A stretch of 64,000 nt of DNA, taken from positions 86,001-150,000 of the forward strand of contig NZ_CP139482.1 of assembly GCF_041222825.1 (NCBI RefSeq), read 5' to 3'. The notes beneath the pieces are model-generated. The model saw only the letters and a program-made list of their open reading frames with translations, searched no databases and was not told the DNA's origin. The DNA is from Candidatus Thalassolituus haligoni. Its GTDB lineage: Bacteria > Pseudomonadota > Gammaproteobacteria > Pseudomonadales > Oceanobacteraceae. Of this stretch, positions 12,944 through 27,741 are shown in pieces (position 1 is the stretch's first letter; every line of letters starts with the position of its first letter). The translations under genes were made by a program, and so were the position numbers.

Positions 12944-13024
12944 CGAGAGAGCACACCATCCGGATGCTGTTGGCCTGCTGGCTGGGTATACTCCGTGCCT
13001 GCCGTATCGTTCACAGAGGTCATC

Positions 13025-14959
13025 ATGTCCGACACCCGCAAAACACCTGGTCAATACACCGCAGCGTCAATTGAAGTTCTTAGTGGACTTGACCCGGTGC
13101 GCAAACGTCCGGGTATGTACACGGATACAACCCGCCCTAACCATCTTGCCCAGGAAGTAATTGATAACTCGGTGGATGAGGCTCTGGCTGGCCATGCTTC
13201 CCGTATTGATGTCACGTTGCATGCGGATGGCTCCATGACCGTGCTGGATGATGGCCGTGGTATGCCAACGGATATTCACCCGGAGCATGGCGTCTCTGGC
13301 GTCGAGCTGATTCTTAGCCAACTGCATGCGGGTGGCAAATTTTCTAATGACAGTTACCAGTTTTCTGGTGGTTTACACGGCGTTGGGGTATCTGTTGTTA
13401 ACGCTTTGTCCAAGGCGCTGGAGGTGACTATCTGGCGTGATGGCCAGGTGCACCGTATCGGTTTCAAGGATGGCTACAAGGTTGCCGACCTGCAGATTAT
13501 TGATAGTTGTGGCAAGAAAAAAACCGGCAGCAGTGTACGGTTTTTGCCGGATGAATCGTATTTCGATAGCCCGCGCTTTTCCGTGGTTCGCCTGAAACAC
13601 GTGTTGCGTGCCAAAGCGGTGCTTTGTCCTGGGCTGCGGATTGTTTTTGTTGCGCCTGACAGCGCCGATAGTGATGAGTGGTATTACGAAGACGGCCTCA
13701 AGGATTATCTGGTTAATGCTGCCAGTGGTTATGAAGTCGTGCCTGCAACGCCATTTACCGGTTCGATGTCCGGGCCCAGTGAGGGTGTGGATTGGGCGGT
13801 GCACTGGTTACCGGATGGCGGCGAGCTGTTGCAGGAGAGTTACGTTAACCTGATTCCTACGGCCCAGGGTGGGACGCATGTGAATGGTTTCCGATCCGGG
13901 TTGCTGGATGCGTTGCGGGAGTTTTGTGAGTTTCGTAATTTGCTGCCTAGAGGCATCAAACTGACACCGGACGACCTCTGGGAGCGATGTTCTTACGTCG
14001 TCTCCGCCAAGCTCTCCGACCCCCAGTTTGCTGGCCAGACAAAAGAACGGTTGTCGTCACGAGAAGCATCGGCCTTTATCTCCGGTGTTGTAAAAGATGC
14101 TTTTGCATTGTGGCTGAATGATCATATTTCCGCTGCAGAACAACTTGCTGAATTGGCGATAACGAGTGCCCAGACCCGCTTGCGCAAATCGAAAAAAGTG
14201 GCCCGCAAGAAAATCACCCAGGGGCCGGCGCTGCCTGGAAAACTGGCTGATTGTACCGGCCAGGATGGTGAGCGGACGGAATTGTTCCTGGTCGAGGGAG
14301 ACTCGGCTGGCGGTTCCGCCAAACAAGCGCGTGATCGTGAGTTTCAGGCGATCATGCCGCTACGGGGCAAAATCCTCAACACCTGGGAAATCGATTCAGA
14401 TCAGATCCTGGCGTCGCAGGAAGTCCACCATATTGCCATTGCCCTGGGGATTGATCCTGGCTCGGATGATCTCTCCGGATTACGTTACGGCAAGGTGTGT
14501 ATTCTTGCCGATGCAGATTCTGATGGATTGCACATCGCTACCTTGTTGTGCGCACTGTTCCTCCGTCACTTCCCGGCGCTGGTAGCAAACGGTCACGTGT
14601 ATGTTGCCATGCCACCCCTGTACCGGATCGATATCGGCAAGGATGTTTATTATGCACTGGACGAAGCGGAGCGCAGCGGGATTGTTGAACGTATCGAAGC
14701 GGAGAAAAAGCGTGGCAAAATTAACGTGCAGCGTTTCAAGGGGCTGGGCGAGATGAATCCGATGCAGTTGCGTGAAACCACCATGGATCCGAATACTCGC
14801 CGTCTGGTGCAACTGGTGCTGGAAGCTGACGATCCTGGATCTGAGATCCAGCAAACTTCGGAGACGCTGGAGTTGATGGATATGCTGCTGGCCAAAAAAC
14901 GTTCAGGGGATCGTAAGTTATGGCTTGAACGGCGTGGTAATGAGGCTGAACTGGCTTGA
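13025..14959 (+). CDS. parE: DNA topoisomerase IV subunit B ParE
   Basis: A 644-residue GHKL-type ATPase subunit of topoisomerase IV, which unlinks daughter chromosomes. The ATP-binding motifs DNSVDEALAG (residues about 40-49), DDGRGMPTDIHPEHG and GGLHGVGVSVVNALS are present; the TOPRIM metal site shows EGDSAGGSAKQARDR and DADSDGLHI. The IMPLRGKILN motif is ParE-like. ATG 13025 has an AGAGG site; an upstream in-frame TTG is not needed. Its partner parC is in this window at 29714, separated by the large envelope operon and a GGDEF-EAL gene. Confidence 0.97.
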   Translation: MSDTRKTPGQYTAASIEVLSGLDPVRKRPGMYTDTTRPNHLAQEVIDNSVDEALAGHASRIDVTLHADGSMTVLDDGRGMPTDIHPEHGVSGVELILSQLHAGGKFSNDSYQFSGGLHGVGVSVVNALSKALEVTIWRDGQVHRIGFKDGYKVADLQIIDSCGKKKTGSSVRFLPDESYFDSPRFSVVRLKHVLRAKAVLCPGLRIVFVAPDSADSDEWYYEDGLKDYLVNAASGYEVVPATPFTGSMSGPSEGVDWAVHWLPDGGELLQESYVNLIPTAQGGTHVNGFRSGLLDALREFCEFRNLLPRGIKLTPDDLWERCSYVVSAKLSDPQFAGQTKERLSSREASAFISGVVKDAFALWLNDHISAAEQLAELAITSAQTRLRKSKKVARKKITQGPALPGKLADCTGQDGERTELFLVEGDSAGGSAKQARDREFQAIMPLRGKILNTWEIDSDQILASQEVHHIAIALGIDPGSDDLSGLRYGKVCILADADSDGLHIATLLCALFLRHFPALVANGHVYVAMPPLYRIDIGKDVYYALDEAERSGIVERIEAEKKRGKINVQRFKGLGEMNPMQLRETTMDPNTRRLVQLVLEADDPGSEIQQTSETLELMDMLLAKKRSGDRKLWLERRGNEAELA

Positions 14960-14960
14960 A

Positions 14961-15398
14961 TCAGCTGGCGTGCTCTGGCAATGGGACGAGCAACCAGTGA
15001 ATATCCTGCTGGCTGATATCTTCCAGGCAGTACTGCTCTAGCACCTGCATGAAGGCCGCCGCTGCATCGGCCAGAACGCCTTGTAAGCGGCAGTGACCTG
15101 TCATAGGACAGTCAATGCCGCCACAATCAATAGGATCCAGCTGGAGTTCCAGCTCCCTGACAATATCGGCAATACTTAATTGTCGGGTAGTCGCCGCCAG
15201 AGTAATGCCGCCCATCTTGCCTCTTGTGCTGTGTATCCAGCCAAGCCCGGCCAGCTTTTGGCTGACCTTGTTGACGTGGTTATGATTCATGTTAAATCGA
15301 TGCGCAAGGATGGAGAGCGATACTTTTTCATTCGCCGGTGTTTGGCATAAATACACCAAAATACGAAGGCCGTAGTCAGTAAATCGGGTTAACTGCAT
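14961..15398 (-). CDS. nsrR: Rrf2 family regulator, NsrR-type
   Basis: A 145-residue Rrf2-family [Fe-S] transcription factor. The winged helix begins MQLTRFTDYGLRILVYL and has the recognition region HNHVNKVSQKLAGLGW and TRGKMGGITLA. The cluster Cys are spaced C-x4-C-x5-C (CGGIDCPMTGHC, near residues 92-103), exactly the NsrR pattern; IscR spacing differs. NsrR senses nitric oxide and represses NO-detoxification genes. It is convergent with parE, only one base after its stop. No NO-response gene is in the window, so the targets are elsewhere. Confidence 0.85.
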   Translation of the reverse strand: MQLTRFTDYGLRILVYLCQTPANEKVSLSILAHRFNMNHNHVNKVSQKLAGLGWIHSTRGKMGGITLAATTRQLSIADIVRELELQLDPIDCGGIDCPMTGHCRLQGVLADAAAAFMQVLEQYCLEDISQQDIHWLLVPLPEHAS

Positions 15399-15656: not shown

Positions 15657-15684
15657 AATAAGGGCTGCTAATGCAGCCCTTATT
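15657..15684 (-). terminator. Intrinsic terminator of the envelope-motor operon
   Basis: A perfect 12-bp inverted repeat AATAAGGGCTGC / GCAGCCCTTATT with a 4-base loop lies 24 bases after the TonB-like stop codon. Read on the minus strand it is followed by a T-rich stretch (TTATTTCTTT), as in intrinsic terminators; on the plus strand the tail TTATTCTTA is weaker. Confidence 0.85.
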
Positions 15685-15707: not shown

Positions 15708-16637
15708 TTACGGTACAAAGTTGATGGGGAACTCAACACTGGCCGTATCCACTTCTGGACGATCTTTGAATCGCATGCGACGGCATTGTGACAGCAGGCG
15801 CTTGTGAAGATCATCATCGTTCAGCTCACTGCGACCAATCTCGCAAGACTCAACCGCACCGGTTGGCGCAATTTTCAAAGCCAGTACCACTGTACCTGCC
15901 AGAGTCGGGTTTTTCTGCTGGGCGCGGCGATAGGCATTGAAGAAGCTTTGCTTGCTGGTTTCGAACACCAGACGCATTTCTTCCTGAGTCCGTTTGGTGG
16001 CGGCTTCCTCGGTCTTGCGAATTTCTTCGCTGGAGACTTCGACGGCCGTTGTCGCACGTTCACCCAATTGCTCGCCACTGGTGGCTGCTGTCAGGGTTGA
16101 CTCATCAATACCGTTCAAGGCAACTACTGCATTTGGATCCACAACGCTGCCAGCACCGACCGAGGCTTTACCATTATTGCTCAGTGCTGCACTGTTGGTA
16201 TCCAACTTGACGTTCGGGATCGCCGCAGCCAAGGCTGCCAACGAGTTCAGAGCGTCTGCTCCCAAAGCTTCCTTGACCTTATCCTGAGCTTTTTTACGCT
16301 CTTCTGGCTTCGCTTCTACCTTGGGTTTCGGTTTTGGCTTCGGTTTTTCTTCCGGTTTTGGAACTTCCGGTTTGGGTTCCTCTTTTTTCTCTTCCTTTGG
16401 CGGAGGAGGTGGCGGAGGTGGCGGAACCGGTTTTTTCTGTTCCAGCAGCTTGGCCAGGGTGGGCGGAATTTTTTCCAACTCACTCCGATCCGGCTCGGGT
16501 ACATCCATCATCGGGATCAAAACTCCGAGGATTGCGGTTAGCAACAGGGCTCCAATCAGGATGGGGATGTAACGCTTTTCACCTGTATCAACCCAGGGCA
16601 AGACAGGGATATGTCGATTTATGAGTGCTTCGCTCAT
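15708..16637 (-). CDS. TonB-like protein with AgmX/PglI-type C-terminal domain
   Basis: A 309-residue inner-membrane protein. One transmembrane helix (about residues 22-44) is followed by a long Pro/Lys/Glu-rich periplasm-spanning stretch (70-125, starting with a run of nine prolines), an Ala/Asn-rich linker and a C-terminal domain (about 210-309) of the AgmX/PglI type seen in Myxococcus gliding proteins: YRRAQQKNPTLAGTVVLALK, then VESCEIGRSEL and QCRRMRF. It would carry force from the ExbB/ExbD motor to the outer envelope. The two Cys in the C-terminal domain could form a disulfide. Last gene of the operon; its start overlaps the upstream exbD stop by four bases. No TonB-dependent receptor lies nearby, so classical siderophore uptake is unlikely. 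Confidence 0.85.
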   Translation of the reverse strand: MSEALINRHIPVLPWVDTGEKRYIPILIGALLLTAILGVLIPMMDVPEPDRSELEKIPPTLAKLLEQKKPVPPPPPPPPPKEEKKEEPKPEVPKPEEKPKPKPKPKVEAKPEERKKAQDKVKEALGADALNSLAALAAAIPNVKLDTNSAALSNNGKASVGAGSVVDPNAVVALNGIDESTLTAATSGEQLGERATTAVEVSSEEIRKTEEAATKRTQEEMRLVFETSKQSFFNAYRRAQQKNPTLAGTVVLALKIAPTGAVESCEIGRSELNDDDLHKRLLSQCRRMRFKDRPEVDTASVEFPINFVP

Positions 16638-17140
16638 GGCGTACCTCCCTCATCGACTTTGTTAACCGCCAGTGAAATATTACTGAACGTCGCTTTTGAA
16701 CAGGTGTTCATCACTTTTTTCAGCAGCTGGTAGGGGGTGTCTTTATCACCGACGATGGTAATAAAACGACCCAACTCCAACATTTCTGGCGACAGTGGTG
16801 AGCGCTCAGCCATGTATTGCAGTTCGGTAAGAAGTGCATCAATGGTTTCGCCTTCTGTCGCTTCAGCCTGCGGTATGCCTATAACGGCACGACCCTGAAC
16901 CAGAATTTCCTGCTTGTTGACCATCACGACCAGATTTTCTTCTGGCATGTTTTCGGCAATCGAAGCGGGTAACTCGATTTGTTCACTGTCTTCAACTTTC
17001 ACATCGTTCTGGTTAACCATAAGGAAAAACACCAGGATGGTGAAAATATCCATCAATGCGGTCAGGTTCAGCGTGCTGCCACCTTTGTTACGCTTGTGGC
17101 TGCGAGCCATGCGCTTGGCGCGGCGGGACGTTTTTTTCAT
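16634..17140 (-). CDS. ExbD/TolR-type motor protein (proton-site Asp present)
   Basis: A 168-residue ExbD/TolR family protein: a very basic cytoplasmic head (KKTSRRAKRMARSHKRNKGG), one transmembrane helix starting LTALMDIFTILVFFLM with the conserved Asp (D31) that carries protons in ExbD, TolR and MotB-like motors, then a periplasmic domain. The final segment (FITIVGDKDTPYQLLKKVMNTC) fits the family's ExbD fold. It overlaps the second ExbD gene upstream by four bases (ATGA). It forms a motor with the ExbB-type protein two genes upstream. Confidence 0.9.
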   Translation of the reverse strand: MKKTSRRAKRMARSHKRNKGGSTLNLTALMDIFTILVFFLMVNQNDVKVEDSEQIELPASIAENMPEENLVVMVNKQEILVQGRAVIGIPQAEATEGETIDALLTELQYMAERSPLSPEMLELGRFITIVGDKDTPYQLLKKVMNTCSKATFSNISLAVNKVDEGGTP

Positions 17141-17655
17141 GGTGTCACCTCCGTTGCGGTCGCCAGATCAGGCGCTGCTCCGAGGGAAATGTCCGGAAAC
17201 AGGGCTGCATCAACCACTGACGTCACAACAACGGCAGGGTATATACGAACCGTATCCATCACTGATACCAGGGTCTGGTAATCAATACCTGGCTCTGGGA
17301 GCAGATTGATGTCGGTTTTCTCAGCAAATACGGGATCTTTTTTGATCTCTTGCAGGATGGTCGACAGTCCTTCGAAGTCGTAGCTTTCGCCTTCCTTCGG
17401 GAACGTCGCATGCACCACCGTTTGCAACAGATAGCTATGAGAAACTTGTATGCTGTCTGAGCGGATGATGACCTCGAGCGTCACATCTTTTGGGTCTACA
17501 ACACTAGGCTGATCGCCCGCCGGCAACTTGAGATCGATTACGGACAGCTGTGAGAACACCATGTTCATCAGCAGTACTGGTACCAGTACGATCATCAGGT
17601 TCATAAAAGATGTAACGTTGAGCTCCGCCTGTTCTTGATTGCGTTGGCGTCTCAT
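17137..17655 (-). CDS. ExbD/TolR-type motor protein with Asn in place of the proton-site Asp
   Basis: A 172-residue ExbD/TolR paralogue with a short head, one transmembrane helix (about residues 12-34) and a periplasmic domain ending in DYQTLVSVMDTVRIYPAVVV. Aligning LNVTSFMNLMIVLVPVLL with LNLTALMDIFTILVFFLM of its neighbour puts Asn19 where the essential Asp should be. I checked the codon (AAC). The protein may be a non-conducting partner in an uneven ExbD pair. It lies 13 bases after the ExbB-type gene and overlaps the next exbD gene. Confidence 0.88.
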   Translation of the reverse strand: MRRQRNQEQAELNVTSFMNLMIVLVPVLLMNMVFSQLSVIDLKLPAGDQPSVVDPKDVTLEVIIRSDSIQVSHSYLLQTVVHATFPKEGESYDFEGLSTILQEIKKDPVFAEKTDINLLPEPGIDYQTLVSVMDTVRIYPAVVVTSVVDAALFPDISLGAAPDLATATEVTP

Positions 17656-17668
17656 TGGAAATTACATC

Positions 17669-18319
17669 TCACTTGTTGCCGGGAGTGGATTGGCCTTGCT
17701 TGCGCTCGGTAATGATGTTCAAAAACTTCACTCCGGCCATTTCAATGCTGTCGACAATCTCATTGGTTTTGGTCTGCAGATAAGTATGCAGTAACAACAG
17801 TGGAATCGCTGCCATCAAACCAAATGCGGTGGTGTTCATCGCAACCGAAATACTCTGCGACAGCAGGGTGGCTTTTTCTGCTGGTGCGGCGTTGGCAACA
17901 GCGGTAAAAGCAGCAATAAGACCCATGATAGTTCCAAGCAGCCCCATCAGGGTGGCAATGTTCGCCAAAGTGGCGACGTACTGGGTGCGTTTTTCAAGCT
18001 GGGGTACCGCTTCCATCAGACCTTCTTCAAGAGCGTATTCAATTTCTTCGCGACGCTGGCTGCCTGGAATTCGGGCAATGGCGGCAGAGAAAATATCGCC
18101 CAGTTTGGTACTGGATTCGTTGGCATAGTTCAGGGCTGCGCGCATATCACGGCTTTCCAGCATTGGCAGGATTTCGTCAAAAGCCTTGCGGTTACTCGAC
18201 TTTTCCTTGGTCAGGTAGAGCAAACGCTCCAGCGCAATGGCAATACCCACAGCCATGATAATGGCAATCGGGTACATAAATACGCCGCCTTCTTGAAAAA
18301 AACGTACGATGGAATCCAT
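17669..18319 (-). CDS. MotA/TolQ/ExbB-type proton channel protein
   Basis: A 216-residue inner-membrane protein with three transmembrane helices (about 15-33, 115-145 and 158-180). The family region LANIATLMGLLGTIMGLIAAF and the following AMNTTAFGLMAAIPLLLLH carry the small and Thr residues lining the ion path. With the two ExbD-type proteins it forms a motor driven by the proton-motive force. GGGGGA precedes the ATG. About 160 bases separate it from the upstream secreted-protein gene, the largest gap in the operon, and this gap holds promoter-like and hairpin signals. Confidence 0.92.
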   Translation of the reverse strand: MDSIVRFFQEGGVFMYPIAIIMAVGIAIALERLLYLTKEKSSNRKAFDEILPMLESRDMRAALNYANESSTKLGDIFSAAIARIPGSQRREEIEYALEEGLMEAVPQLEKRTQYVATLANIATLMGLLGTIMGLIAAFTAVANAAPAEKATLLSQSISVAMNTTAFGLMAAIPLLLLHTYLQTKTNEIVDSIEMAGVKFLNIITERKQGQSTPGNK

Positions 18320-18346
18320 AGAATTTCCCCCAGATTTATTACGTGG

Positions 18347-18374
18347 TAGATAGTATTTTACTGTTAGCTTTCAA
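18347..18374 (-). promoter_or_regulatory. Candidate internal promoter for the motor genes
   Basis: On the minus strand TTGAAA (18374-18369) and TATCTA (18352-18347) are separated by 16 bases, a fair sigma70 match, about 28 bases before the ExbB-type start codon. It would let the motor and TonB-like genes be made independently of the eight upstream genes. Confidence 0.4.
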
Positions 18375-18396
18375 GCTGTTGTTGGTATTCAACAGC
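18375..18396 (-). other. Hairpin in the gap before the motor genes
   Basis: GCTGTTG (18375-18381) pairs with CAACAGC (18390-18396) across an 8-base loop. It lies immediately upstream of the candidate internal promoter. It may act as an mRNA processing or stability element or a partial terminator; there is no U-run. Confidence 0.4.
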
Positions 18397-18480
18397 AGGA
18401 AAATTGCATTTAATCGACAACCGGCCATGCAAATACAGCTAATTTCACTGATTTGTCAGCCTACGCGATCCTTGTGTGAA

Positions 18481-18777
18481 CTAATTCGCTTTCCTTTCCG
18501 TTGCCTGATTTCCGAAACCGTCTCTGAAACGTTTGGCATATTCAACTTCTAGCTGAAATTGTTTCGGTTGCAGCGGCTCGAAGCGTTCTTCCTCATAGCC
18601 ATTAATAGGTTCGAACGGTATTTCCACGTCGGGTGGGCTTTTCCATGAAGTAATTGTCATGATGCCGGCGTCTTCCGTACTGCCAAGGATGGAGATCCCT
18701 TCCAGTTGAATAACATCTGCTGCAATAGCGGTTACCGGAGAAAGCAAGGCCAGCAGTGCGAATAACCATGTTTTCAT
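18481..18777 (-). CDS. Small secreted protein of the envelope-motor operon, 98 aa
   Basis: A 98-residue protein with a clear signal peptide (MKTWLFALLALLSPVTAIAA), leaving a mature periplasmic protein of about 78 residues. It has an early strand-forming stretch (VIQLEGISILGS), a Pro-rich middle (SPPDVEIPFEPINGYEEERF) and a helical, charged C-terminus. No family is recognised. The start ATG overlaps the stop of the upstream TPR lipoprotein gene by one base (TGATG), so the two are translationally coupled and probably act together. Its position beside the motor genes suggests it belongs to the periplasmic part of the machine. Confidence 0.75.
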   Translation of the reverse strand: MKTWLFALLALLSPVTAIAADVIQLEGISILGSTEDAGIMTITSWKSPPDVEIPFEPINGYEEERFEPLQPKQFQLEVEYAKRFRDGFGNQATERKAN

Positions 18778-19523
18778 CAGGAGTCTCCTTCCGAATCTGC
18801 AGCAGCCGCAGGCTGCTGGGTTGGCGCTTCACTAGGCTGGCTGGCTGCTTCGGCGGCAGCGGCAGCTTCTTGTGCCTGGGTGTTTTTGATGCGTTTGTCG
18901 AGATCCTGTATCCAGATTGTCAGTAGTGGATCTTCTTTCTTGTTCAGCTGCTGTGCTGTGCGGTACTGGAGCAATGCTTTCCCGTACTGCCTCATATACA
19001 GATCGTACAATATGCCCAGGTTATAGTGCAGATCGGGGTTGGGCACTGAGCACTGAATGGCTTTGGAATAGCTTTGTTCTGCCAGGGTAAAATCACCAAG
19101 TTCCCGTGCTACTGGCCCCATAGCCTGAAACGCAGGACAAAATTCGCTATTCAATACCAAGGCCTGATCAATGCTGGATTTACTGCCTTCAAAATCCCCG
19201 GTCTGGTATTGGGATAAACCCAGATTGACCCAGACGCCCGGATATTCCGGAAAACGCTCAGACATGATGATCCAGTGCTTCAAAGCCTGGTCATAGCGTT
19301 TTGATTTGAGCAAAATCAGGCCATGCTTGAACAGCCCCTTGGTTTCTGCATCAAGGTCAGCATCAGCAGAGTCATCCGGCCCGGTTTCTGCTTCTGTCTC
19401 TGCAGCTACTTGTTGTTGTGTTTCTTCTGGTTGGTCGGCGTTATCCTCGCCGTCGCTCTTCATCAACGAGCTACAGCCTGCCAGCACCATCACCAAGAGA
19501 AAACTAGCGAATCTCACTAACAT
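18777..19523 (-). CDS. TPR-repeat lipoprotein (GltE-like in position and design)
   Basis: A 248-residue lipoprotein: signal peptide with lipobox VLAGC (Cys17) followed by Ser-Ser, which predicts outer-membrane sorting. An acidic Gln/Glu-rich linker runs to about residue 60. Three to four TPR units follow (about 65-200), for example GLILLKSKRYDQALKHWI, GLSQYQTGDFEGSKSSIDQA and NLGILYDLYMRQYGKALLQY. An Ala/Gln-rich tail ends the protein. TPR lipoproteins of this sort occur in the Myxococcus Glt complex and its relatives. The start overlaps the end of the upstream gene by 20 bases. Confidence 0.82.
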   Translation of the reverse strand: MLVRFASFLLVMVLAGCSSLMKSDGEDNADQPEETQQQVAAETEAETGPDDSADADLDAETKGLFKHGLILLKSKRYDQALKHWIIMSERFPEYPGVWVNLGLSQYQTGDFEGSKSSIDQALVLNSEFCPAFQAMGPVARELGDFTLAEQSYSKAIQCSVPNPDLHYNLGILYDLYMRQYGKALLQYRTAQQLNKKEDPLLTIWIQDLDKRIKNTQAQEAAAAAEAASQPSEAPTQQPAAAADSEGDS

Positions 19524-22335
19524 AGCTCAATTCCTTTTCGTCCTTACGGTATTGGGTCGGTGCCAGGTCAGCCATGACATCGAAGCTCTTTTTGATCCAT
19601 TCATCGTAAATGCCGTCGTAGGTACGATTGATGTTTTTCATCTGCACGTCCATCGCGGCCTGCTCAAACGGGTAGGCCTGGTCTTCAAGCAGGAATTGGT
19701 ATTCCTCGAGTTCCAGCTCATCCAGTCCTTTTGGTCGTTCTGAGTCCAATAGCGCCTTGCTCAGTTGGGTATAGAGCTGACCAATACGATAGGTCGAGGA
19801 GGTGGTAAATTCGAGCACGCCCATCTCGACGGATTGGGTATACAACTCCTGAGCTTCTTGCATGGCCTTGTTCTTGATCGGAATACTCTTGTTGAGTGGC
19901 AAGGTCAGCGGCAGACTCTCGTATTTCAGTCGTGAAAACTCTGCCAACTCGTAGGAGGCACCAGCAGCCAAGTACTTCGAGCGTTCGGTTTGCTTGTCCC
20001 CGGCATTGGCATTCAGGGTAATGATTTTATCAAGCCAGAAACGACGCTTGTCTTCGTCCTTTTCATTGCCTTCCATGCCATACAGTTGCTCCAGCTTGTA
20101 GTGGGCTTCGATGGCGGGATCGAAAGGTTCCGAGTAGTTGTTGGCATAGCGCTTGAACATGACGATGGCGCTGCCAATGTCACCGGCTTTTTCATAATAT
20201 TCACCGGATTGGAAACAGGCGATGCGCTGTTCTTTCTTGTCTTTGGATGTACGCCATACATCCGCCAGAGCATTGGCTGCCGTCGCCCATTTTTCCTGCT
20301 TTTCATAGGTGAAAATCAGCTTGGTGGGAATATCCTGACTGAGTTTATGGTTGGGATATTTACGCTGGAATGCTTTTAGCGCTTTCTCTGCCCCGGCATA
20401 GTCCTCTATTTCAAACAGCATGGTGGCGGCATCGTATTCGGCAATGATGGAGTTTTCGCTGCCAGGAGTGACATCACCAATGCGATTCCAGCTGGCGGCT
20501 GCCAACTCGTAATCACCGGCTTCGCGGGCCTGCTCACCTTGTTTGTAGATCGCCGCCGCGAGTTTTTCGCGAATATCCTTGCGGGTTTTGCCATCAATCT
20601 TGTTGTACTTCAGTGCTTGCTGAAACGCTTCTTCTGCTTCGGTGTAATATCCCAGCTCAAATGCCGAGTGTCCTCGAACCAGTGCAGCACCATAGCGATG
20701 TTTGTCTGACAGATTATCCTGAATGCCCCAGGCCATGCGGGAAACAGACAGTGCCTCTTCATAGTTTTTGTCAGCCAGGAACAGCTCGGAAGTACTTACC
20801 AGAACCTTGCCACGCTCTTCATGCTCGGGGAAGGTATTGATAAAGCGCATGGAGTTTTCAGCACTTTGCTGACGCCATTCTGCTGCTTCATCTTCGTTGG
20901 TTGGTTTGTATTTGTTATAAGCCAATACCGTTGCATAGGCAGCCTCCGAGGCTCGCGGATGATCGGGGTATTGATAGGCTACGATTTCGTAATGATCACG
21001 GGCTTGCTTGTAGTTGCCGAGCTCGTAGGCGATCTCTGCCAGCAAGAAATGCGCTTCGGCGGCATCGGCGGCATCCGGGACACTACGTAAATAAATGTCG
21101 TACCACTTCGCCGCTTCGGCATAACGTGCTGCTTTTTCCGCACTGTCTTTGGTCTGTTGTGCCCAGCCGTGATTAAACTTGGCTAAATCCATAATATAGC
21201 CAGCGAGGGGTTCGCGAATCGTGGCGTGTACTTCTTCACCATGGTTAGCCCAATACTCACTGTCGATACCGAAACGGTCTATATAGTCTGCTTCGCTTTG
21301 ACGTTGCAGTACGGGGTAGCCTGCAGCAGCGTACTGGTCAACCATGTGCTGGTAATAAACCGGTGCCCGGTCACTATCGGGGTAGCGCTCGACATAGGCG
21401 GCCAGCGTCGACGCGCCACTCTGGTAGTATTTTTGCTCGTAGTAGAAGTCAGCCAGGCGATCATAAATCAGGTATTCGTAGTGGCGACGACCGTAGTGAT
21501 CAAAGAATTCGCCGACCTCTTCCCATTCACCACGGTAACTGAAAGCGACTGCCATGGTGTAAACGCTGTCCTTGAGGATTTCAAGGTCGGCACCACTGGC
21601 GTTATCAATCGCACTCTGGGTTGGGTAGTCTTCGTCAATCAGCCGAGCAAACGCCAGCAGGCTGTCATCGTAACGGCTTTGTTTAAACAGCGACCAGCCC
21701 AGCATGTAGCCAGCATTGCTGTAGTATTTATTGCCAATACGACCATGTTTTACCAGGCGCTGGAACGATTGTTCTGCTGCGACATAGTCGCTCATGGCAT
21801 AGCGCAGTTCACCAAGGCGGAATTCGGCATCAAGATAATAGAGGGAGTCCGGGTAGCGTTCGACCAGCTGTTCAAGAACCCTGGCGGTTTCTTCCGGCTC
21901 AGCTGCGATGTTGTAAGCTTTGGCTAGCTGATAGAGTATTTCATCATTGCTGGCGTTGTCTGGATGATCGGCCAGTAATGATTCGAAATCACGAATGGAG
22001 GCGGCAAGCACCTCCGGATCAACGGCTTCTTCTTCATCGGAAGTAAAGCTGTCGCCGGTCCAAGCTGCTTCTTGCTCGTTCAGGCGCAGCGCAGCAATAC
22101 GGCGGGAAGCCAGCATTGCGTATTGGTGGTGATCTGCGACTTCAATGTAAGCCCGATAACGTGCCACGACGTCTTCATTGGTGACAATCAGTGGCTCATT
22201 GGAAGGCGCTTTCAGTCCGTAATATGTGAGATCCGATATGGTGCCAGCCTGGTGTGGTTGTACCTGGGCGCAGCCAGCAGTTACAAGCAGACAGGACACG
22301 ACAGAGGACCATATCAGTGAGCGCCGGTCATTCAT
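19504..22335 (-). CDS. Large TPR-repeat lipoprotein, 943 aa
   Basis: A 943-residue envelope protein almost entirely built of TPR-like helical hairpins. ATG 22335 is chosen because it starts a signal peptide with lipobox VTAGC (about residues 18-22); a longer in-frame start would bury this signal. At least ten repeat units are visible, such as YYLDAEFRLGELRYAMSDYV, HFLLAEIAYELGNYKQARDHY and EFGY-like SAFELGYYTEAEEAFQQAL. The protein resembles the large periplasmic TPR scaffolds of gliding and outer-membrane assembly machines. It overlaps both neighbours by 8 and 20 bases. Likely a periplasmic scaffold between the barrel proteins and the motor. Confidence 0.8.
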   Translation of the reverse strand: MNDRRSLIWSSVVSCLLVTAGCAQVQPHQAGTISDLTYYGLKAPSNEPLIVTNEDVVARYRAYIEVADHHQYAMLASRRIAALRLNEQEAAWTGDSFTSDEEEAVDPEVLAASIRDFESLLADHPDNASNDEILYQLAKAYNIAAEPEETARVLEQLVERYPDSLYYLDAEFRLGELRYAMSDYVAAEQSFQRLVKHGRIGNKYYSNAGYMLGWSLFKQSRYDDSLLAFARLIDEDYPTQSAIDNASGADLEILKDSVYTMAVAFSYRGEWEEVGEFFDHYGRRHYEYLIYDRLADFYYEQKYYQSGASTLAAYVERYPDSDRAPVYYQHMVDQYAAAGYPVLQRQSEADYIDRFGIDSEYWANHGEEVHATIREPLAGYIMDLAKFNHGWAQQTKDSAEKAARYAEAAKWYDIYLRSVPDAADAAEAHFLLAEIAYELGNYKQARDHYEIVAYQYPDHPRASEAAYATVLAYNKYKPTNEDEAAEWRQQSAENSMRFINTFPEHEERGKVLVSTSELFLADKNYEEALSVSRMAWGIQDNLSDKHRYGAALVRGHSAFELGYYTEAEEAFQQALKYNKIDGKTRKDIREKLAAAIYKQGEQAREAGDYELAAASWNRIGDVTPGSENSIIAEYDAATMLFEIEDYAGAEKALKAFQRKYPNHKLSQDIPTKLIFTYEKQEKWATAANALADVWRTSKDKKEQRIACFQSGEYYEKAGDIGSAIVMFKRYANNYSEPFDPAIEAHYKLEQLYGMEGNEKDEDKRRFWLDKIITLNANAGDKQTERSKYLAAGASYELAEFSRLKYESLPLTLPLNKSIPIKNKAMQEAQELYTQSVEMGVLEFTTSSTYRIGQLYTQLSKALLDSERPKGLDELELEEYQFLLEDQAYPFEQAAMDVQMKNINRTYDGIYDEWIKKSFDVMADLAPTQYRKDEKELSYVSEIR

Positions 22336-24262
22336 ATTCACCCAGGCCTCCGCTGTTGGTGTTGCGACGCAGCTCGTTGTCGTAAAGTCGGGCAATAGAC
22401 AGGCGAGTGGTCGCGAGGTAATCCTTGAGTCGGTCTTTCAACATGCCGATATGGCTCTGAGCAACGGTGACAATTTGCTGCTGCTGTTTGGTGTGGAGTG
22501 CTGTCAGTGTTTGTTCCAGCTGGCTGAGTTTGCTGGCGGCGGCTTCGATGGTTGCCAGGTGCGCTTCAGAGTGGGCGTGAAAGGTACCCACCTGTTCCCG
22601 TAGTCCATTGACATTGGTCAGCTGGGTATTTAAATCCTGATATTGCTGCTGCAATAGAAGTTGCTGTTTTTTGAGTGTCCATGCCCTTTGTGGTAAAGAC
22701 TTGCTCAGCTGCCACTGGGAAATGCCTTGCAGGAGCGCGGCCTGCTCACGGATATCTTGTTCCATGGGCGTTTCGCCACTGGATTCCTTGGCAATAGCGA
22801 CCAGCTTATTCAGCTGCTGTAACTCTGATTCATTGGCAAAACCAAACGCTTGGCGCCGCTGTTCCTGAATGCGCTGGTCGATCAGTGCGATCTGTTGTTG
22901 CAGCTGCCTGGAGCTGCTTTCTACCTGCTCCAGTCTGCCGGACTGTGCGACCTGAACATAAGCCGCCAGATTGGCGAGCTTCTCAGCCTGTGCAAGAGAC
23001 AGCTGTTGTTGTTGCCGTTGAACCCAGTCCAGCATGCTGCGAATGTCCAGCAGACGCTGCTGCTCCTGGATGAAGGCGCTGGTACTGAGCAATCCTTCAA
23101 GGTTGCGGCTAGTGGGTGATTCGGTGACGCCCTGAGGGTCAGCACTGAGTATATTGTCAGAGGTTGCCGACTGGCGAGCTTCCCAGCGCGCTACCCACTG
23201 AAGTAAGGTTGCCGGATTGTTGAGATTATTGAGCTGCTCAAGTGCCAACGTCATACGGTTTTCTGTGTATTCGTAGACGGGCAGGGAGGGCACCCCACCA
23301 TTCATTAGTTCGGCAAGGTAGGATGTTGCCATCAATGATTCGAGTGCATGAATGTCCAGCAGGGGGAAGTGCTCCTGCAATACCCGCCATGGCTGTAATG
23401 CCTGGTCGTATTGCCAGCGCTTTGACAATGCCCAGCCATATTGCAGCAATGCATCGGAGGTGTAGGGGCCATCCTTGGATACCTGACGCAAATAACCAAT
23501 GGCTTCGTCATAATGTTTGTTGCGTAACTCGTATTTTCCCGCCGTTAAACGGAAGCGATCATTCAGCGCAGTTTGCTGTTCATTTTCCGGATCATTGACC
23601 AGAAAATCGGACACCCACTGCTGCAAGTCGTCAGCAGATATTCCCTGGCGCATTTTTGTCAGCATCAGGTTATAACCGGCAAACCGGTACCAGTGGCTAT
23701 CCTCATCAATCTGACTAAAAGCCTCTTCAGCTTGCGGGGTCTGATCTCGATTGGCGTATGAGGTGGTGGCTATAAAGGCTGCTTCGGCTTCATCTGCCGG
23801 GTTCAGCAAAGCGTCGCCGGCCATCGCCTTACTGACCAGTTGGCCAGCTTGCAGCCAGTTACTTCGGTCGGAGGCGTTACGGGCCAGCATGAACCAGGTA
23901 TTTCCCATTCCTGGAGAGTGACTGAGTGACGGATCACGGAGCAACGCACTGGCGTAGGAATCCATGCCCAAGTCTGACAACCCGGCGGGTAGTGTGTACA
24001 TGATGTCCATATCGGCGAGCGTTGGTTCTGCGTCACTGTCTGACATGGCAACCAGAGGGTTGCTGGTCAGATAGTGGAAGAAATACACACGCTTGCCCAG
24101 CTCGTGATTCAGCACATCGATTGGGGTTTTCAGTACCGGAGCTGTGGCACTTAGCGCAGATACAATGCTGTTATCTGACGCCGTAGGCTGCGCTGCACAG
24201 GTAGTACTGCTTACCCAAGCGGTAGCCGCTACGGCCAGAGCGAGTAATCCTGACTTTTGCAT
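22328..24262 (-). CDS. Periplasmic helical/coiled-coil protein, 644 aa
   Basis: A 644-residue protein with a signal peptide (about residues 1-24, ending CAAQ). The first 340 residues are helical repeats with TPR character, for example YNLMLTKMRQGISADDLQQW and ALLQYGWALSKRWQYDQALQ. The last 250 residues, rich in Gln, Leu and Glu (LQQQIALIDQRIQEQRRQ and neighbours), are strongly predicted coiled coil. No named family is recognised. It overlaps the large TPR gene by eight bases and starts three bases after the preceding gene. The signal peptide has a Cys near the cleavage region, so a lipoprotein is possible but the lipobox is poor. Confidence 0.75.
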   Translation of the reverse strand: MQKSGLLALAVAATAWVSSTTCAAQPTASDNSIVSALSATAPVLKTPIDVLNHELGKRVYFFHYLTSNPLVAMSDSDAEPTLADMDIMYTLPAGLSDLGMDSYASALLRDPSLSHSPGMGNTWFMLARNASDRSNWLQAGQLVSKAMAGDALLNPADEAEAAFIATTSYANRDQTPQAEEAFSQIDEDSHWYRFAGYNLMLTKMRQGISADDLQQWVSDFLVNDPENEQQTALNDRFRLTAGKYELRNKHYDEAIGYLRQVSKDGPYTSDALLQYGWALSKRWQYDQALQPWRVLQEHFPLLDIHALESLMATSYLAELMNGGVPSLPVYEYTENRMTLALEQLNNLNNPATLLQWVARWEARQSATSDNILSADPQGVTESPTSRNLEGLLSTSAFIQEQQRLLDIRSMLDWVQRQQQQLSLAQAEKLANLAAYVQVAQSGRLEQVESSSRQLQQQIALIDQRIQEQRRQAFGFANESELQQLNKLVAIAKESSGETPMEQDIREQAALLQGISQWQLSKSLPQRAWTLKKQQLLLQQQYQDLNTQLTNVNGLREQVGTFHAHSEAHLATIEAAASKLSQLEQTLTALHTKQQQQIVTVAQSHIGMLKDRLKDYLATTRLSIARLYDNELRRNTNSGGLGEYE

Positions 24263-24265
24263 GAC

Positions 24266-24772
24266 TTACCAAGCCTTCAGAGTAGCAACTGCGCTGCGTT
24301 GGGCGGTGTTGTCCGTAATAGAAAGCAAGAGTTTGAGATGGTCGCCGTTTTTACGGAAAACCCCCTCATAGACCAGATCACGAACACGCTTGTTTTCGTC
24401 ACGTCCACGCACGACAACTTTCAACAGGTGATTGCCGGGTGCCACTTCAAGGTCGGCCAGCGGCTGGACAGCACCAAACTGAAGGGCCTGGATTTCTTTT
24501 TCCGTATAAAGATAGTTAACGGGAGTAATACCATTGCCAGACACTGTGATTGACATGGGGGTAAAGAATTTACCGTTACTGAGTGCCAAATACAGTGACG
24601 CCTTGGTACTAATCGGGCTGATCAGTTGCTTTTCGATGGCCGAGAGCTCGCTGCTCAACTCAATCACCGAGCGTTTGGCTGAATCGATTTCAAGCTGAAT
24701 GTCTTCTGGGGTCGCTGCCACGGCTTGGAAAATACCGAAGAACCATAGCATCCCTGCAACTAAAAACTTCAT
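24266..24772 (-). CDS. Small secreted protein of the envelope-motor operon, 168 aa
   Basis: A 168-residue protein with a signal peptide (MKFLVAGMLWFFGIFQAVAA), a helical stretch of about 30 residues with heptad spacing (SAKRSVIELSSELSAIEKQL) and a beta-rich C-terminal domain (for example NHLLKVVVRGRDENKRV and LVYEGVFRKNGDHLKLLLS). No family is recognised. ATG 24772 has a GAGG ribosome-binding site at proper distance; the GTG six bases upstream does not. It is sandwiched between the thioredoxin-like and coiled-coil genes with gaps of ten and three bases. Confidence 0.75.
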   Translation of the reverse strand: MKFLVAGMLWFFGIFQAVAATPEDIQLEIDSAKRSVIELSSELSAIEKQLISPISTKASLYLALSNGKFFTPMSITVSGNGITPVNYLYTEKEIQALQFGAVQPLADLEVAPGNHLLKVVVRGRDENKRVRDLVYEGVFRKNGDHLKLLLSITDNTAQRSAVATLKAW

Positions 24773-24782
24773 AACCACCTCA

Positions 24783-25301
24783 TCAACGTTGATGTACTAC
24801 GCCGTCCCCGGATAACCAGTGACTCAGGGCGCGGCGAGTGAATTCCATATTTCTGAAAAGGCTACCTGCGTACAGGTAATCCAGTGTTCCGTCAGGGCTA
24901 ACCAGCATTACGGCGGGCAATGGGTTGATTTGCCATGCCCTGGTCAGTTTCTGGTTGTATGCCAGTAACGGCAGACTTGTATGGGGAGCATCCTTGACCA
25001 ACTGATCATCGGTATCCCATATCACCCAGGTAACCAGGCCGTTTTTGCTGTACTGACGTGCCAGTTGCTCATACTGCTCCAGTGCTTCCCGGCATTGGTG
25101 ACATGGGCCGACCCAAATCAGCATTACCGGCTTGCCGCGCTGCTCATTCAAGCTTTTTGCGTAGCCGCCCATGACCGGAGGAAGCGCCAGCTCGGCCAGC
25201 GTGTCTCCAATCGACAGTTTGCTCGAGGCTGTGTCAGCAACGGAAAAACTGGCGATCAGAGCGGCCAGGACTAGTAGTAAAATCCGACTGCTATGCTCCA
25301 T
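24783..25301 (-). CDS. Periplasmic TlpA-like thioredoxin protein
   Basis: A 172-residue thioredoxin-fold protein with an N-terminal signal peptide or anchor (about residues 5-23). The redox site is CHQC in WVGPCHQCREALEQY (near residue 65), and the cis-Pro loop is INPLPAVMLVSPDG. The sequence around the active site departs from the usual WCPPC/WCGPC, so its redox partner may be special. It overlaps the upstream barrel gene by 31 bases. Inference: it keeps Cys of co-encoded envelope proteins, such as the two in the TonB-like C-terminal domain, in the right state. Confidence 0.82.
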   Translation of the reverse strand: MEHSSRILLLVLAALIASFSVADTASSKLSIGDTLAELALPPVMGGYAKSLNEQRGKPVMLIWVGPCHQCREALEQYEQLARQYSKNGLVTWVIWDTDDQLVKDAPHTSLPLLAYNQKLTRAWQINPLPAVMLVSPDGTLDYLYAGSLFRNMEFTRRALSHWLSGDGVVHQR

Positions 25302-26248
25302 TGCAGACCTCGGTGCGAACCTTCTTGGTTAAGTACTTCGTCATCGACGTGGTAGTAGCGGGTATCGGTACCAATCCAGTAGTCGCCCATCATCACCTGA
25401 AGAGATGTCCCTACGCCGAGGTACATGCCATGGCTGCTGCCAGTGAACTGTTCACCGATAACGCCATCTACGTTCAACTGCCATGGCAGAAACGTTTCGC
25501 CATCAACACTGGTAATACCTTTGAGCAGTGAATAGCCGATTCCGGCGGTAATGACACGGAAGGCTGCATGCTCCTTCAACTCGGTATTACCGTTATCATC
25601 CTTGATGGTCTGGTTGCCAAACGAGGTCAGGCCCAAATCGATACTGGCCAGGGCATCCATACGGTCGGTCAGGTGATAACGGACAGAGCCGCCAAACAAC
25701 AGGCTGTCGCCATATTCCGCAGACGTTTGCTGACCCAGTGACATGCCAATCAGAGCTTTCTGTTCCGGAATACCATCGGAAAAATCAAATGTGCGGGGGA
25801 TCGGTTCAAAGATCTCTGCCGTTCGGGGAACCGCAGATACGCCAACGAGGGGCAGCAACCCTTGCATCACGCTGGCTCCGTCCAGAGCCGAGCTGGTATT
25901 GACGGCTACTTCGTCTGCCATATAGCTCTTTTCTGTGCCCATTTGCGCCATTCGGGACAACAGTTTTTCCATCATCGCCGGGTTGTCAAAGGCAGACGAT
26001 GCCGGAGGCGTTTCCTTTTGAACCATGTGCAACAGCTTTTCGAGCACTTTCGGATCGTTCAGAGCCTCGGCATTGCCCGGAGCCAGTTTGGCGTCAGATT
26101 TGGCCTTGTCGGCGACCATACCCAGCAGCTTTTGCAATACGGCAGGGTCGTCAAAGGTCGATGGAGAAGTCTCGGCAGCTGCAATTGACGACGCTGCCAG
26201 GAGGAAACCCAGTGCAAGACTGGATCTTTTCAGAAACGAATTTTCCAT
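25271..26248 (-). CDS. Outer-membrane beta-barrel protein with four N-terminal repeats
   Basis: A 325-residue secreted protein (signal peptide about residues 1-25). Residues 30-140 hold four degenerate repeats: FDDPAVLQKLLGMV, LNDPKVLEKLLHMV, FDNPAMMEKLLSRM and LDGASVMQGLLPLV, each separated by about 30 residues. From about residue 150 the sequence alternates in the manner of an eight- to ten-strand barrel and ends SIAVGFYY, an aromatic C-terminus suited to BAM-mediated insertion. It overlaps the preceding gene by 19 bases and the thioredoxin-like gene by 31. It resembles GltA/GltB-type barrels in place and size, not provably in sequence. Confidence 0.8.
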   Translation of the reverse strand: MENSFLKRSSLALGFLLAASSIAAAETSPSTFDDPAVLQKLLGMVADKAKSDAKLAPGNAEALNDPKVLEKLLHMVQKETPPASSAFDNPAMMEKLLSRMAQMGTEKSYMADEVAVNTSSALDGASVMQGLLPLVGVSAVPRTAEIFEPIPRTFDFSDGIPEQKALIGMSLGQQTSAEYGDSLLFGGSVRYHLTDRMDALASIDLGLTSFGNQTIKDDNGNTELKEHAAFRVITAGIGYSLLKGITSVDGETFLPWQLNVDGVIGEQFTGSSHGMYLGVGTSLQVMMGDYWIGTDTRYYHVDDEVLNQEGSHRGLQWSIAVGFYY

Positions 26249-26964
26249 ACTAGGGCCAACGCTCCATGATTTGCACTATTGCCAGACAAGGCTTGCTGGA
26301 CTTGAACCCGGCCGCCGATACTGACGTTGTAAGCTATATTCCAGTTGATATCGGTTGTGGCTGAAAGCAGCGGCACGGTTGTGTCGTCACCCTCGTCGTC
26401 CCAGCGGGTTGAACCGCCTGAACTCTTGCCAACACCAACTCCCAAATATCCATCCCATGACCAGCGACCGTTCTCGGCGAAAGGAAAGCGCTTTCCTGCC
26501 TCCAGAGAGTACCAGTCATCATTCGTGTCGGTAGAACGGGTAATGCGTACAGCCGCTGCCTGATCAAACAAAATAAAGTTGGCACCGAGTGTCAGAGCGG
26601 TTTCAGAGGTTGCAGCCAGTTCAAACTGGGGATTGTTTTCGTCACTATTGTCACGAAACTGCAGTGGCTCCAGGCGCTTGATGTTTTCTGGCAACGCTTC
26701 GAGCGAGTCGATACTGATCCAGCCCTGATACTCTCCAGCCTGTACATACAACCAGTCGAGCTGGCGTTTCAGGGGGATAAGCGCCGTATCAGACGGTATG
26801 TCCGTCGAAACCGGATAGGTATCTGCTGGACCCATTCTTAACTGAATGGGTGCTGCGGTCGCAACAGAAACGAGGCCGACACTCAGTGCCAGAGCCTTGG
26901 TCAGCATGAGCAGTCTGCCGAGATGGAACATCGGACGCTGCTTTGTTTCTGGATTCGCCTGCAT
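26230..26964 (-). CDS. Outer-membrane beta-barrel protein with SH3-like domain
   Basis: A 244-residue protein, first gene of the operon. After a signal peptide (about residues 20-38) comes a bacterial SH3-like domain (about 40-92: LRMGPADTYPVSTDIPSDTA, then WLYVQAGEYQGWISIDSL), a fold that often binds peptidoglycan. The C-terminal part (about 112-244) has alternating strands and ends ALVWKIRF, typical of outer-membrane barrels. ATG 26964 is used; the Met at residue 12 or 20 would also give a shorter signal peptide. It would join outer membrane to cell wall. A good sigma70 promoter lies 60 bases upstream. Confidence 0.78.
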   Translation of the reverse strand: MQANPETKQRPMFHLGRLLMLTKALALSVGLVSVATAAPIQLRMGPADTYPVSTDIPSDTALIPLKRQLDWLYVQAGEYQGWISIDSLEALPENIKRLEPLQFRDNSDENNPQFELAATSETALTLGANFILFDQAAAVRITRSTDTNDDWYSLEAGKRFPFAENGRWSWDGYLGVGVGKSSGGSTRWDDEGDDTTVPLLSATTDINWNIAYNVSIGGRVQVQQALSGNSANHGALALVWKIRF

Positions 26965-27023: not shown

Positions 27024-27052
27024 AGTATGCTTAGCCAGTTAGTGCTCGTCAA
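27024..27052 (-). promoter_or_regulatory. Sigma70-type promoter of the envelope-motor operon
   Basis: On the minus strand TTGACG (27052-27047) and CATACT (27029-27024) are separated by exactly 17 bases. Predicted transcription begins near 27017, about 50 bases before ATG 26964. An AAGGA element follows at about 26980. Confidence 0.6.
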
Positions 27053-27741
27053 CACAGTGTATCAATTATGTTACATCACGTTAATTCAGACACGTTTTGT
27101 GCACTTCGTCGACCAAAATAAAAATAATGGGCAGATGACGAGGTGGCGAGCCTAGCAGCCTAATTGGACGGTTTTATGTCAGTTGGAATACAAATAGAAG
27201 GGGCAGCGGTGATTGTCCGACATGGCGATTCAGAGCAAATTTCCTGACAAATGCTCATTTTATGGCACCGTTGCTGCCCTGAAGGCAGGCAAGCGCGTTC
27301 GCACCCCAATAATATTAATCCCTGCGGTGATCAGAGCTGCTGGTCATTTGCTTGTATTCAACAAAGACAACTAAATATGAGTTGAGGCTGGAATATTGGG
27401 CGTTGCTATCTGTTTTTGAGCTAACAAAAGCGATTATCTGAACGGATTAATTTCACAAAATGTGAATTGATTCCGGTTCAGTGGGCATGCCTTTGCTCTC
27501 TTGAGTCGTCAGAATATAGATAAATTGTCGGATTGCTTGCCGATCCAAAAAGCCGCGTTGGCGGCGTGATAGCGCGCTATCTGGCTGAAACACGGTTAGC
27601 GGCAATGGCAATAAGGACAGTCGCGGCCGATATCCAATCAATCTGAAAAAGTTGTTACATAAATTTACATAAACGGGGATATTATGCGGTAACAGGGTTC
27701 CGAGCGGGATCGGTTCATGTGCTTCTGTGGCGGGAAAATGG
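27053..27741. other. Long intergenic region between the envelope-motor operon and the GGDEF-EAL gene
   Basis: About 690 bases, more AT-rich than the surroundings. It holds a candidate structured RNA (27201-27279), a small palindrome TTCACA-AAA-TGTGAA (27452-27466) and a near-tandem TTACATAAA pair (27655-27673), probably part of the control region of the downstream gene. I looked for a GEMM-type c-di-GMP riboswitch and did not find one. A 99-codon minus-strand frame at 27453-27752 lacks gene-like features. Confidence 0.5.
27201..27279 (+). ncRNA. Candidate structured RNA element
   Basis: An outer stem joins GGGCAGCGGTG (27201-27211) to CACC plus GCTGCCC (27266-27279) with a 3-base bulge. Inside it GAGCA (27233-27237) pairs with TGCTC (27252-27256), closing a smaller stem TTT/AAA around CCTGAC. 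Nested pairing of eleven plus five to eight base pairs in a noncoding stretch is more than expected by chance, but no known RNA family is recognised and no U-run follows. The strand is not certain. Confidence 0.35.

Follow-up and report, generated by a model that had tools for sequence, protein, structure and literature searches.

A twelve-gene operon of Candidatus Thalassolituus haligoni as a probable extended member of the Agl/Glt/Nfs class of envelope machines

A 64,000-nucleotide (nt) stretch of the Candidatus Thalassolituus haligoni genome (bases 86001–150000 of its single 4.38-Mb contig; hereafter the window) carries a minus-strand operon of twelve open reading frames (ORFs), spanning 26964–15708, whose predicted products place it in the Agl/Glt/Nfs class. 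Read 5′ to 3′, the genes are B1, B2, Tx (a thioredoxin), s4, C, D, E, F, R, Q, S and G. On homology, the assignment appears firm for the motor and for C, D, E, G and s4, and the operon is, by its predicted products, an extended form, going beyond the seven-gene core described previously by a GltF-like protein, s4, two barrels and the thioredoxin. We put the probability at roughly 0.6 that it encodes an extended, proton-powered envelope machine of this class that acts on surface cargo. A preliminary description of the window had likened the operon to the core of the Agl/Glt gliding machinery; this reading is supported because homology and gene order agree, with the amendment that the operon belongs to the class but is larger than the core.

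We compared the operon with Myxococcota by running profiles built from gammaproteobacterial loci over the 2089 ORFs of 20 stretches from nine Myxococcota genomes, which were reached via MglA and in which GltD-type genes were then located, and by subsequent profile–profile comparison (hhalign). The gammaproteobacterial profiles matched Myxococcota GltD, GltE, GltG and GltC, with best E values of 6e-103, 2e-74, 6e-27 and 3e-23, respectively. Motor matches were confined to one locus, L257 of Enhygromyxa (R 1e-56, S 6e-22, Q 5e-20), where s4-C-D-E is separated from R-Q-S-G by one or two small genes; a 103-amino acid (aa) gene between E and R was placed in the GltF set by eye. An s4 homologue stands at the equivalent position in Myxococcota (1.2e-7; hhalign 97.0%, E 1e-10). 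The best GltD match lies in a cluster near mglA (L240 of Hyalangium and L247 of a Myxococcus sp.), ordered s4-C-D-E-F-G in Hyalangium, which we take to be the published G4 cluster; unlike the window, this cluster has no adjacent R, Q or S, and its stretches gave no B1 or B2 match. In Geobacter-type genomes the GltD profile gave weak matches alone, at the level of tetratricopeptide repeats (TPRs).

The putative motor lies at the 3′ end of the operon. R (17669–18319, minus strand, as are all twelve genes) is a predicted AglR-type ExbB/MotA proton-channel protein of 216 aa (MotA_ExbB, 8e-28), and the one ExbB-type and two ExbD-type proteins described earlier are borne out by Q (17137–17655; ExbD, 9e-13) and S (16634–17140; ExbD, 8e-16). 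The membrane Asp is replaced by Asn in Q (N19) and kept in S (D31). Across loci, this position is Asn in 52 of 55 Q proteins, with Asp in 2 and Ser in 1, and Asp in 55 of 55 S proteins. The Enhygromyxa ExbD pair shows the identical asymmetry, and we infer that there may be one proton site per ExbD pair. G (15708–16637) is a GltG-type TonB-like protein with one predicted membrane helix, a Pro/Lys-rich spacer and a C-terminal AgmX/PglI domain; this domain, also named in the preliminary description, scores 55.3 bits over a cut-off of 40 (NF033768), and the GltG model matches at 8.4e-5, under its cut-off. A domain scan of G gave no match to the FHA domain that is present in Myxococcus GltG. Since a MotA/ExbB-type motor stands beside large proteins, we also considered a Zorya-like anti-phage motor system, to which we give next to no weight: no PADLOC family matched at E ≤ 1e-5 among the ten of twelve proteins scanned, and the motor's partners are envelope or secreted proteins throughout. 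As for Tol-Pal, domain scans found neither TolB nor Pal among the twelve products.

Upstream of the motor genes lie those for the predicted periplasmic scaffold. D (19504–22335) is a GltD-type protein of 943 aa with TPR domains and a lipoprotein-like start (LLVTAGC); it is 98% identical to a protein named Oceanobacter antarcticus (P0016) and groups in a GltD tree with three loci of its own family (L070, L071 and L072). E (18777–19523) is a GltE-type TPR protein of 248 aa, likewise with a lipoprotein-like start (LVMVLAGC), which matches the GltE model at 5.4e-8, under cut-off. C (22328–24262) is a GltC-type helical-repeat protein of 644 aa, predicted to be secreted. Of the three repeat proteins first described, two of them as lipoproteins, D and E agree with the description; in C, all TPR matches fall under cut-off. 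The secreted 170-aa protein s4 (24266–24778) is a conserved core component. For F (18481–18777), a small secreted protein of 98 aa, the family profile found two Myxococcota matches located between GltE and GltG (1.6e-4 and 2.5e-4), and hhalign gave 58.6% (E 1e-4) against a Myxococcota GltF set that includes one wrong-frame ORF (L252|86). These likenesses are suggestive of F being a GltF-type protein.

The front of the operon encodes two predicted outer-membrane barrels and a thioredoxin. B2 (25271–26248; 325 aa, with a repeat-rich N-terminal part) scores 27.2 bits with OMP_myx_plus, under the cut-off of 60. Its profile matches barrels at the NfsA/NfsB (GltA/B) position, namely two genes that precede GltC in Myxococcus sp. 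CA023 (2.7e-6 and 9.1e-6), as well as the L251 barrel of a metagenome-assembled genome (5e-22). Against three Myxococcota barrel sets hhalign gave 94.4% (E 9e-8), 87.3% and 60.8%, versus 0.2% at most for DUF3570, a barrel used as a decoy. The case for B2 as a member of the class therefore appears good. B1 (26230–26964), a predicted secreted protein of 244 aa, matches no family above cut-off, with a possible SH3-like stretch (SH3_16, E 0.022, under cut-off), and its best E in the Myxococcota stretches is 0.0015. Its barrel nature is drawn from the likeness of its profile to that of B2 (98.6%); B1 is thus tied to the GltA/B-type barrels indirectly, solely through B2. Of the two barrels first described, then, B2 is upheld by profile likeness and B1 would follow by its likeness to B2. 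Tx (24783–25301) is a predicted TlpA/ResA-like thioredoxin with the catalytic motif CHQC; the earlier assignment agrees with an AhpC-TSA match of 3.9e-7 (30.5 bits over a cut-off of 26), and a ResA model matches at 5e-9, under cut-off.

An ExbB, two ExbD proteins, a TonB-like C-terminus and outer-membrane barrels in one operon could also serve TonB-type uptake dedicated to a substrate that is large or insoluble, with B1 and B2 as the energised outer-membrane port. We consider this unlikely. Domain scans of the twelve products found no member of the TonB-dependent receptor family, in agreement with the earlier statement that no receptor is present, and B2 is likened to barrels at the NfsA/NfsB position. 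Moreover, the R family profile gives the Enhygromyxa R 189 bits versus 133.5 for the best other ExbB/TolQ paralogue of the window genome, although the ExbB tree is poorly resolved (support 43, deep branches unsupported). To our knowledge, TPR proteins of the kind of C, D and E are foreign to ordinary TonB systems.

We examined conservation of the operon in two partly overlapping samples, of the class (369 genomes) and of the order (145 genomes). GltD served as the probe (E ≤ 1e-30) because the barrel is too diverged; as a sole probe, the barrel had recovered 2 of 229 genomes. A GltD-type protein was found in 88 of the 369 class-sample genomes and 54 of the 145 order-sample genomes. We then assembled 61 loci, comprising the window and 60 fetched stretches of ≤20 kb, which were chosen from GltD matches inside long contigs and are not a random sample. 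With best-family assignment and overlaps filtered, D was counted in 61 loci, s4 and F in 57 each, C in 56 and E in 55; before assignment, the F profile matched in 61 of 61 and those of R, Q, S and G in 55 each. The exact run s4-C-D-E-F-R-Q-S-G occurs in 37 of the 61 loci, C-D-E-F-R-Q-S-G in 40 and D-E-F-R-Q-S-G in 46; in three loci (L088, L089 and L095) the order is D-E-F-R-Q-S-G-Tx-s4-C. The front-end genes are less frequent (B2 in 20 stretches, B1 in 20, Tx in 23). We conclude that s4-C-D-E-F-R-Q-S-G is a near-invariant unit, an observation that is new here, and that the operon is more than a chance grouping, since the same gene order recurs in other genomes. The preliminary description had offered to give up its reading if the genes did not stay together in relatives; their order is kept. 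Two loci from different families (L092:1516-12157 and L126:810-12147) hold second C-D-E-F copies, free of motor genes, immediately after the genes for TssF, TssG and a ClpB-type ATPase, that is, a Glt-type scaffold within a type VI secretion cluster.

A core of this kind has been described before. In the text of Luciano et al. (2011; PMC3169522), gltC, gltD, gltE and gltG are clustered with aglR, aglQ and aglS in marine Gammaproteobacteria, as in the window, with copies named in Marinobacter and Teredinibacter; this seven-gene core of unknown function is accompanied by one additional gene. The same text places gltA, gltB and gltF in Myxococcales and Bdellovibrionales only, and gives the core's additional gene no homologue there. 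Unlike that core, the loci studied here add F (61 of 61 loci), s4 and the B1/B2 pair (20 of 61 stretches), in a comparison that covers the paper apart from the putative diverged homologues of its Figure S1. New here, then, is the predicted extension of the core by F and s4, and by the barrels in part of the loci. Among the matches listed in the open-access literature for gliding terms, none of later date dealt with the gammaproteobacterial core. The available text of a Thalassolituus proteome paper (PMC6304351) holds nothing on the operon, and that of a paper on the predator Venatorbacter (PMC8560859) concerns related genera and shows no link to it.

A comparable arrangement of barrels and scaffold genes is that of the Nfs system of Myxococcus, which assembles the spore coat with the Agl motor. 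There, as predicted for the window, a barrel pair stands ahead of GltC/D/E-type genes and of the GltF and GltG positions; in Myxococcus sp. CA023 (L245), two B2-profile matches are followed by C, D, E, a further gene and G. Unlike the window, L245 has no adjoining motor genes, no s4 and no thioredoxin match, and the window itself lacks a sporulation context. In the Nfs case, Agl drives the movement of Nfs proteins and of a glycan around the spore (PMC3858216), which provides a precedent for the movement of surface cargo. We propose that, in the window operon, proton flow through R-Q-S would drive G, which would pull on a periplasmic scaffold of D, E, C, F and s4; the barrels would hand this pull on to cargo at the outer surface, and Tx may keep the thiols of barrel or cargo in order.

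The published precedents also include gliding, in which the motor complex would travel along the cell and push on the substrate as in Myxococcus. The 2011 study offered the speculation that possession of AglRQS and GltA–G makes any bacterium a potential glider (PMC3169522), and the window encodes predicted GltC–G types together with a putative barrel pair in the GltA/B position. However, MglA gave no match in the window genome at E ≤ 1e-10, and was found in 3 of the 145 order-sample genomes, all of one genus. The motility raised in the preliminary description thus goes unsupported, control of the MglA type is unlikely, and we regard a Myxococcus-like gliding machine as quite improbable; the proposed machine would not be an MglA-controlled gliding engine. 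One record met in the MglA comparison, titled Comamonas sp. KCTC 72670 (L131), has an MglA with 99% identity to the Myxococcus protein, and its title is probably wrong.

If the machine acts on surface cargo, its relatives suggest what that cargo might be. A large protein family that we call c0 lies near the operon in 16 of the 60 fetched stretches, and B2 is present in all 16; c0 is missing from four B2-bearing stretches, namely the window, its two closest relatives (L070 and L071) and L128. DUF3570 occurs in 11 stretches, exclusively with B2. Members of c0 have HZS_alpha and PD40 domains and two conserved CxxCH motifs, and four of the seven longest have a lipoprotein-like start, as do 8 of 9 members of c3, a LamG-CxxCH family. 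Family c5 matches PSD2 slightly under cut-off, and c4, a secreted family, gave no Pfam family in the two members scanned. An assignment of c4 to DUF1501 was ruled out on that result and on an hhalign value of 0.9% against a true DUF1501 protein. Of 20 additional stretches, each retrieved around c0, c4 or another copy, 13 hold the full set c4-c3-c5 beside c0-B1-B2-Tx-DUF3570, and ApbE is also present in 7 of the 20. From gene order, the B1-B2-Tx segment of the window looks like a piece of this surface module fused directly to the core. Named relatives of c0 come from Marinobacter, Hahella, Candidatus Thiodiazotropha and Ketobacteraceae; those from Teredinibacter turnerae, Cellvibrionaceae, Kangiellaceae and Pleionea are longer and contain PKD and fibro-slime/PA14-type domains. 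In the proteins P0219–P0246 the propeller part is joined to PKD and fibro-slime/PA14 domains in chains of up to 2369 aa, which fits surface adhesins.

In common with the DsbD/ApbE/DUF3570/DUF4266/thioredoxin flavinylation clusters of Meheust et al. (2021; PMC8238504), the module carries DUF3570 and DUF4266 together with a thioredoxin and, in many cases, ApbE. Unlike those clusters, the window operon holds the thioredoxin alone. In the open-access papers listed, this study alone has both DUF3570 and DUF4266. The words 'gliding' and 'ExbB' do not occur in the available text of that paper, and we found nothing relevant on a link between the surface module and Glt in the open-access literature, a search that leaves subscription journals mostly uncovered.

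The distribution of c0 and c4 (both at E ≤ 1e-15) follows that of GltD. In the order sample, c0 is present in 38 of 54 genomes with GltD versus 0 of 91 without (Fisher 2e-22, with genomes treated as independent, which they are not), and in the class sample in 50 of 88 versus 1 of 281 (51 of 369 overall). Among the families with GltD, c0 reaches 22 of 26 (order sample) and 29 of 48 (class sample). The sole c0 genome lacking GltD, G034, has c0 in two pieces, with c3, c4 and c5 adjoining; in this locus (L289) c5-c3-c4 stand by the broken c0 as though the set were decaying in the absence of the machine. Similarly, all 31 order-sample genomes with c4 (of 145) have GltD, as do 47 of the 49 in the class sample (of 369); the other two are G034 and G001, where c4 is a 298-nt piece at the end of a contig. 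Of 38 c0 genes, 22 lie within 20 kb of a GltD gene; a further 2 share its contig at a greater distance, and 14 are on different contigs, in some cases perhaps through breaks in draft assemblies. That c0 is nearly confined to genomes with GltD, with 16 of 38 copies not seen within 20 kb of it, points to a dedicated surface cargo. The usual gammaproteobacterial cargo would accordingly comprise the CxxCH (haem c-type motif) surface lipoproteins of c0, the LamG protein, the PSD2 protein and c4, often with the DUF3570 flavoprotein.

The same co-occurrence with secreted CxxCH lipoproteins, the thioredoxin in the operon and the PKD and fibro-slime/PA14 domains of c0 relatives would also suit a machine for export or assembly, by which surface lipoproteins or redox proteins are taken through the outer membrane or placed on it with no lateral movement. 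We regard this alternative as rather doubtful, because the characterised relatives, Nfs and Agl, move cargo along the surface (PMC3858216).

Several observations weigh against a cargo-moving machine of this class in the window. First, c0 gave no match in the window genome at E ≤ 1e-3, nor c4 at 1e-15, so that the cargo idea leaves the window operon itself unexplained. Second, 34 of the 88 class-sample genomes with GltD lack both c0 and c4. Third, the c0 profile was trained on GltD-adjacent loci and hence favours such copies, and the co-occurrence statistics ignore shared ancestry. Finally, class membership is uneven across the operon: the GltF likeness of F is weak (1.6e-4; 58.6%), B1 reaches 14.1% at most in hhalign against the Myxococcota barrel sets, which is not significant, and the Tx profile has no match in the 20 Myxococcota stretches.

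Both c0 and c4 are also absent from the sister genomes G468 and G496. If the proposed machine operates in the window genome, where the usual cargo set is gone, it must act on another surface substrate. This genome has one DUF3570 gene, away from the operon, in a small DUF3570-thioredoxin-ApbE cluster. There (L300:9211-12266), a cysteine-tailed small lipoprotein-like gene, presumably DUF4266-like as judged by eye, stands in a row with DUF3570, the thioredoxin and ApbE. In G468, a separate row (L303:9850-15405) encodes a CxxCH lipoprotein with PSD1/PSCyt3, a DUF1501 protein, a Tx-like thioredoxin and DUF3570, a set that may be a replacement cargo.

The operon is compact. Distances between successive genes are −19, −31, 4, 3, −5, −20, −1, 161, 13, −4 and −4 nt, reckoned with a GltD-type start at 22332 (the ATG that yields the 943-aa protein is at 22335). 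The run of overlaps or tiny gaps first described therefore holds for all twelve ORFs apart from one large spacer of 161 nt between F and R (18320–18480), which holds an imperfect 13-nt inverted repeat (18369–18402) and is a possible internal regulatory site. At the back, the terminator reported earlier is confirmed as a predicted intrinsic hairpin (15657–15684, minus strand) with a perfect 12-bp stem, a loop of 4 and a T-rich tail, ATTTCTTT, which closes the operon; a consensus scan did not list it. The promoter claimed at the front is not established: the site TTGACG-17-CATACT (27024–27052, minus strand) matches 9 of 12 consensus positions, and sites of such quality occur at chance rate here (9 found versus 11.5 expected in the region). 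Rfam gave no match at the locus.

Past the terminator, on the strand of the operon, lies a gene for an Rrf2-type regulator (14961–15398), and upstream, on the opposite strand, a PAS-GGDEF-EAL gene (27727–29640). The latter occupies the position at which L070, L071, L072 and L080 have an AAA (MoxR-like) ATPase and a VWA/CoxE protein preceding the operon (domains checked in one member each). The ORFs at 12995–14959 and 29714–31966 are presumably parE and parC, which they resemble by eye.

We tentatively suggest that the gammaproteobacterial Glt core may be a proton-powered motor that pulls, displays or assembles a surface redox or adhesion complex at the outer membrane, made up of lipoproteins with haem c-type motifs (c0, LamG and PSD2 proteins) and a DUF3570 flavoprotein. 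Gliding and spore-coat wrapping would, on this view, be later uses of a machine that commonly has a set of surface proteins as its cargo, and Oceanobacter may have exchanged the cargo while retaining the motor, the scaffold, the barrels and the thioredoxin. A gene family nearly confined to core-bearing genomes, and often unlinked to the core, provides a concrete candidate cargo for the Glt core outside myxobacteria, and opens the function of the core to experiments in genera that can be cultured, Marinobacter among them. If a surface redox or adhesion complex is indeed its cargo, the motor used in gliding would represent one application of a force-driven machine of more general use at the cell surface.

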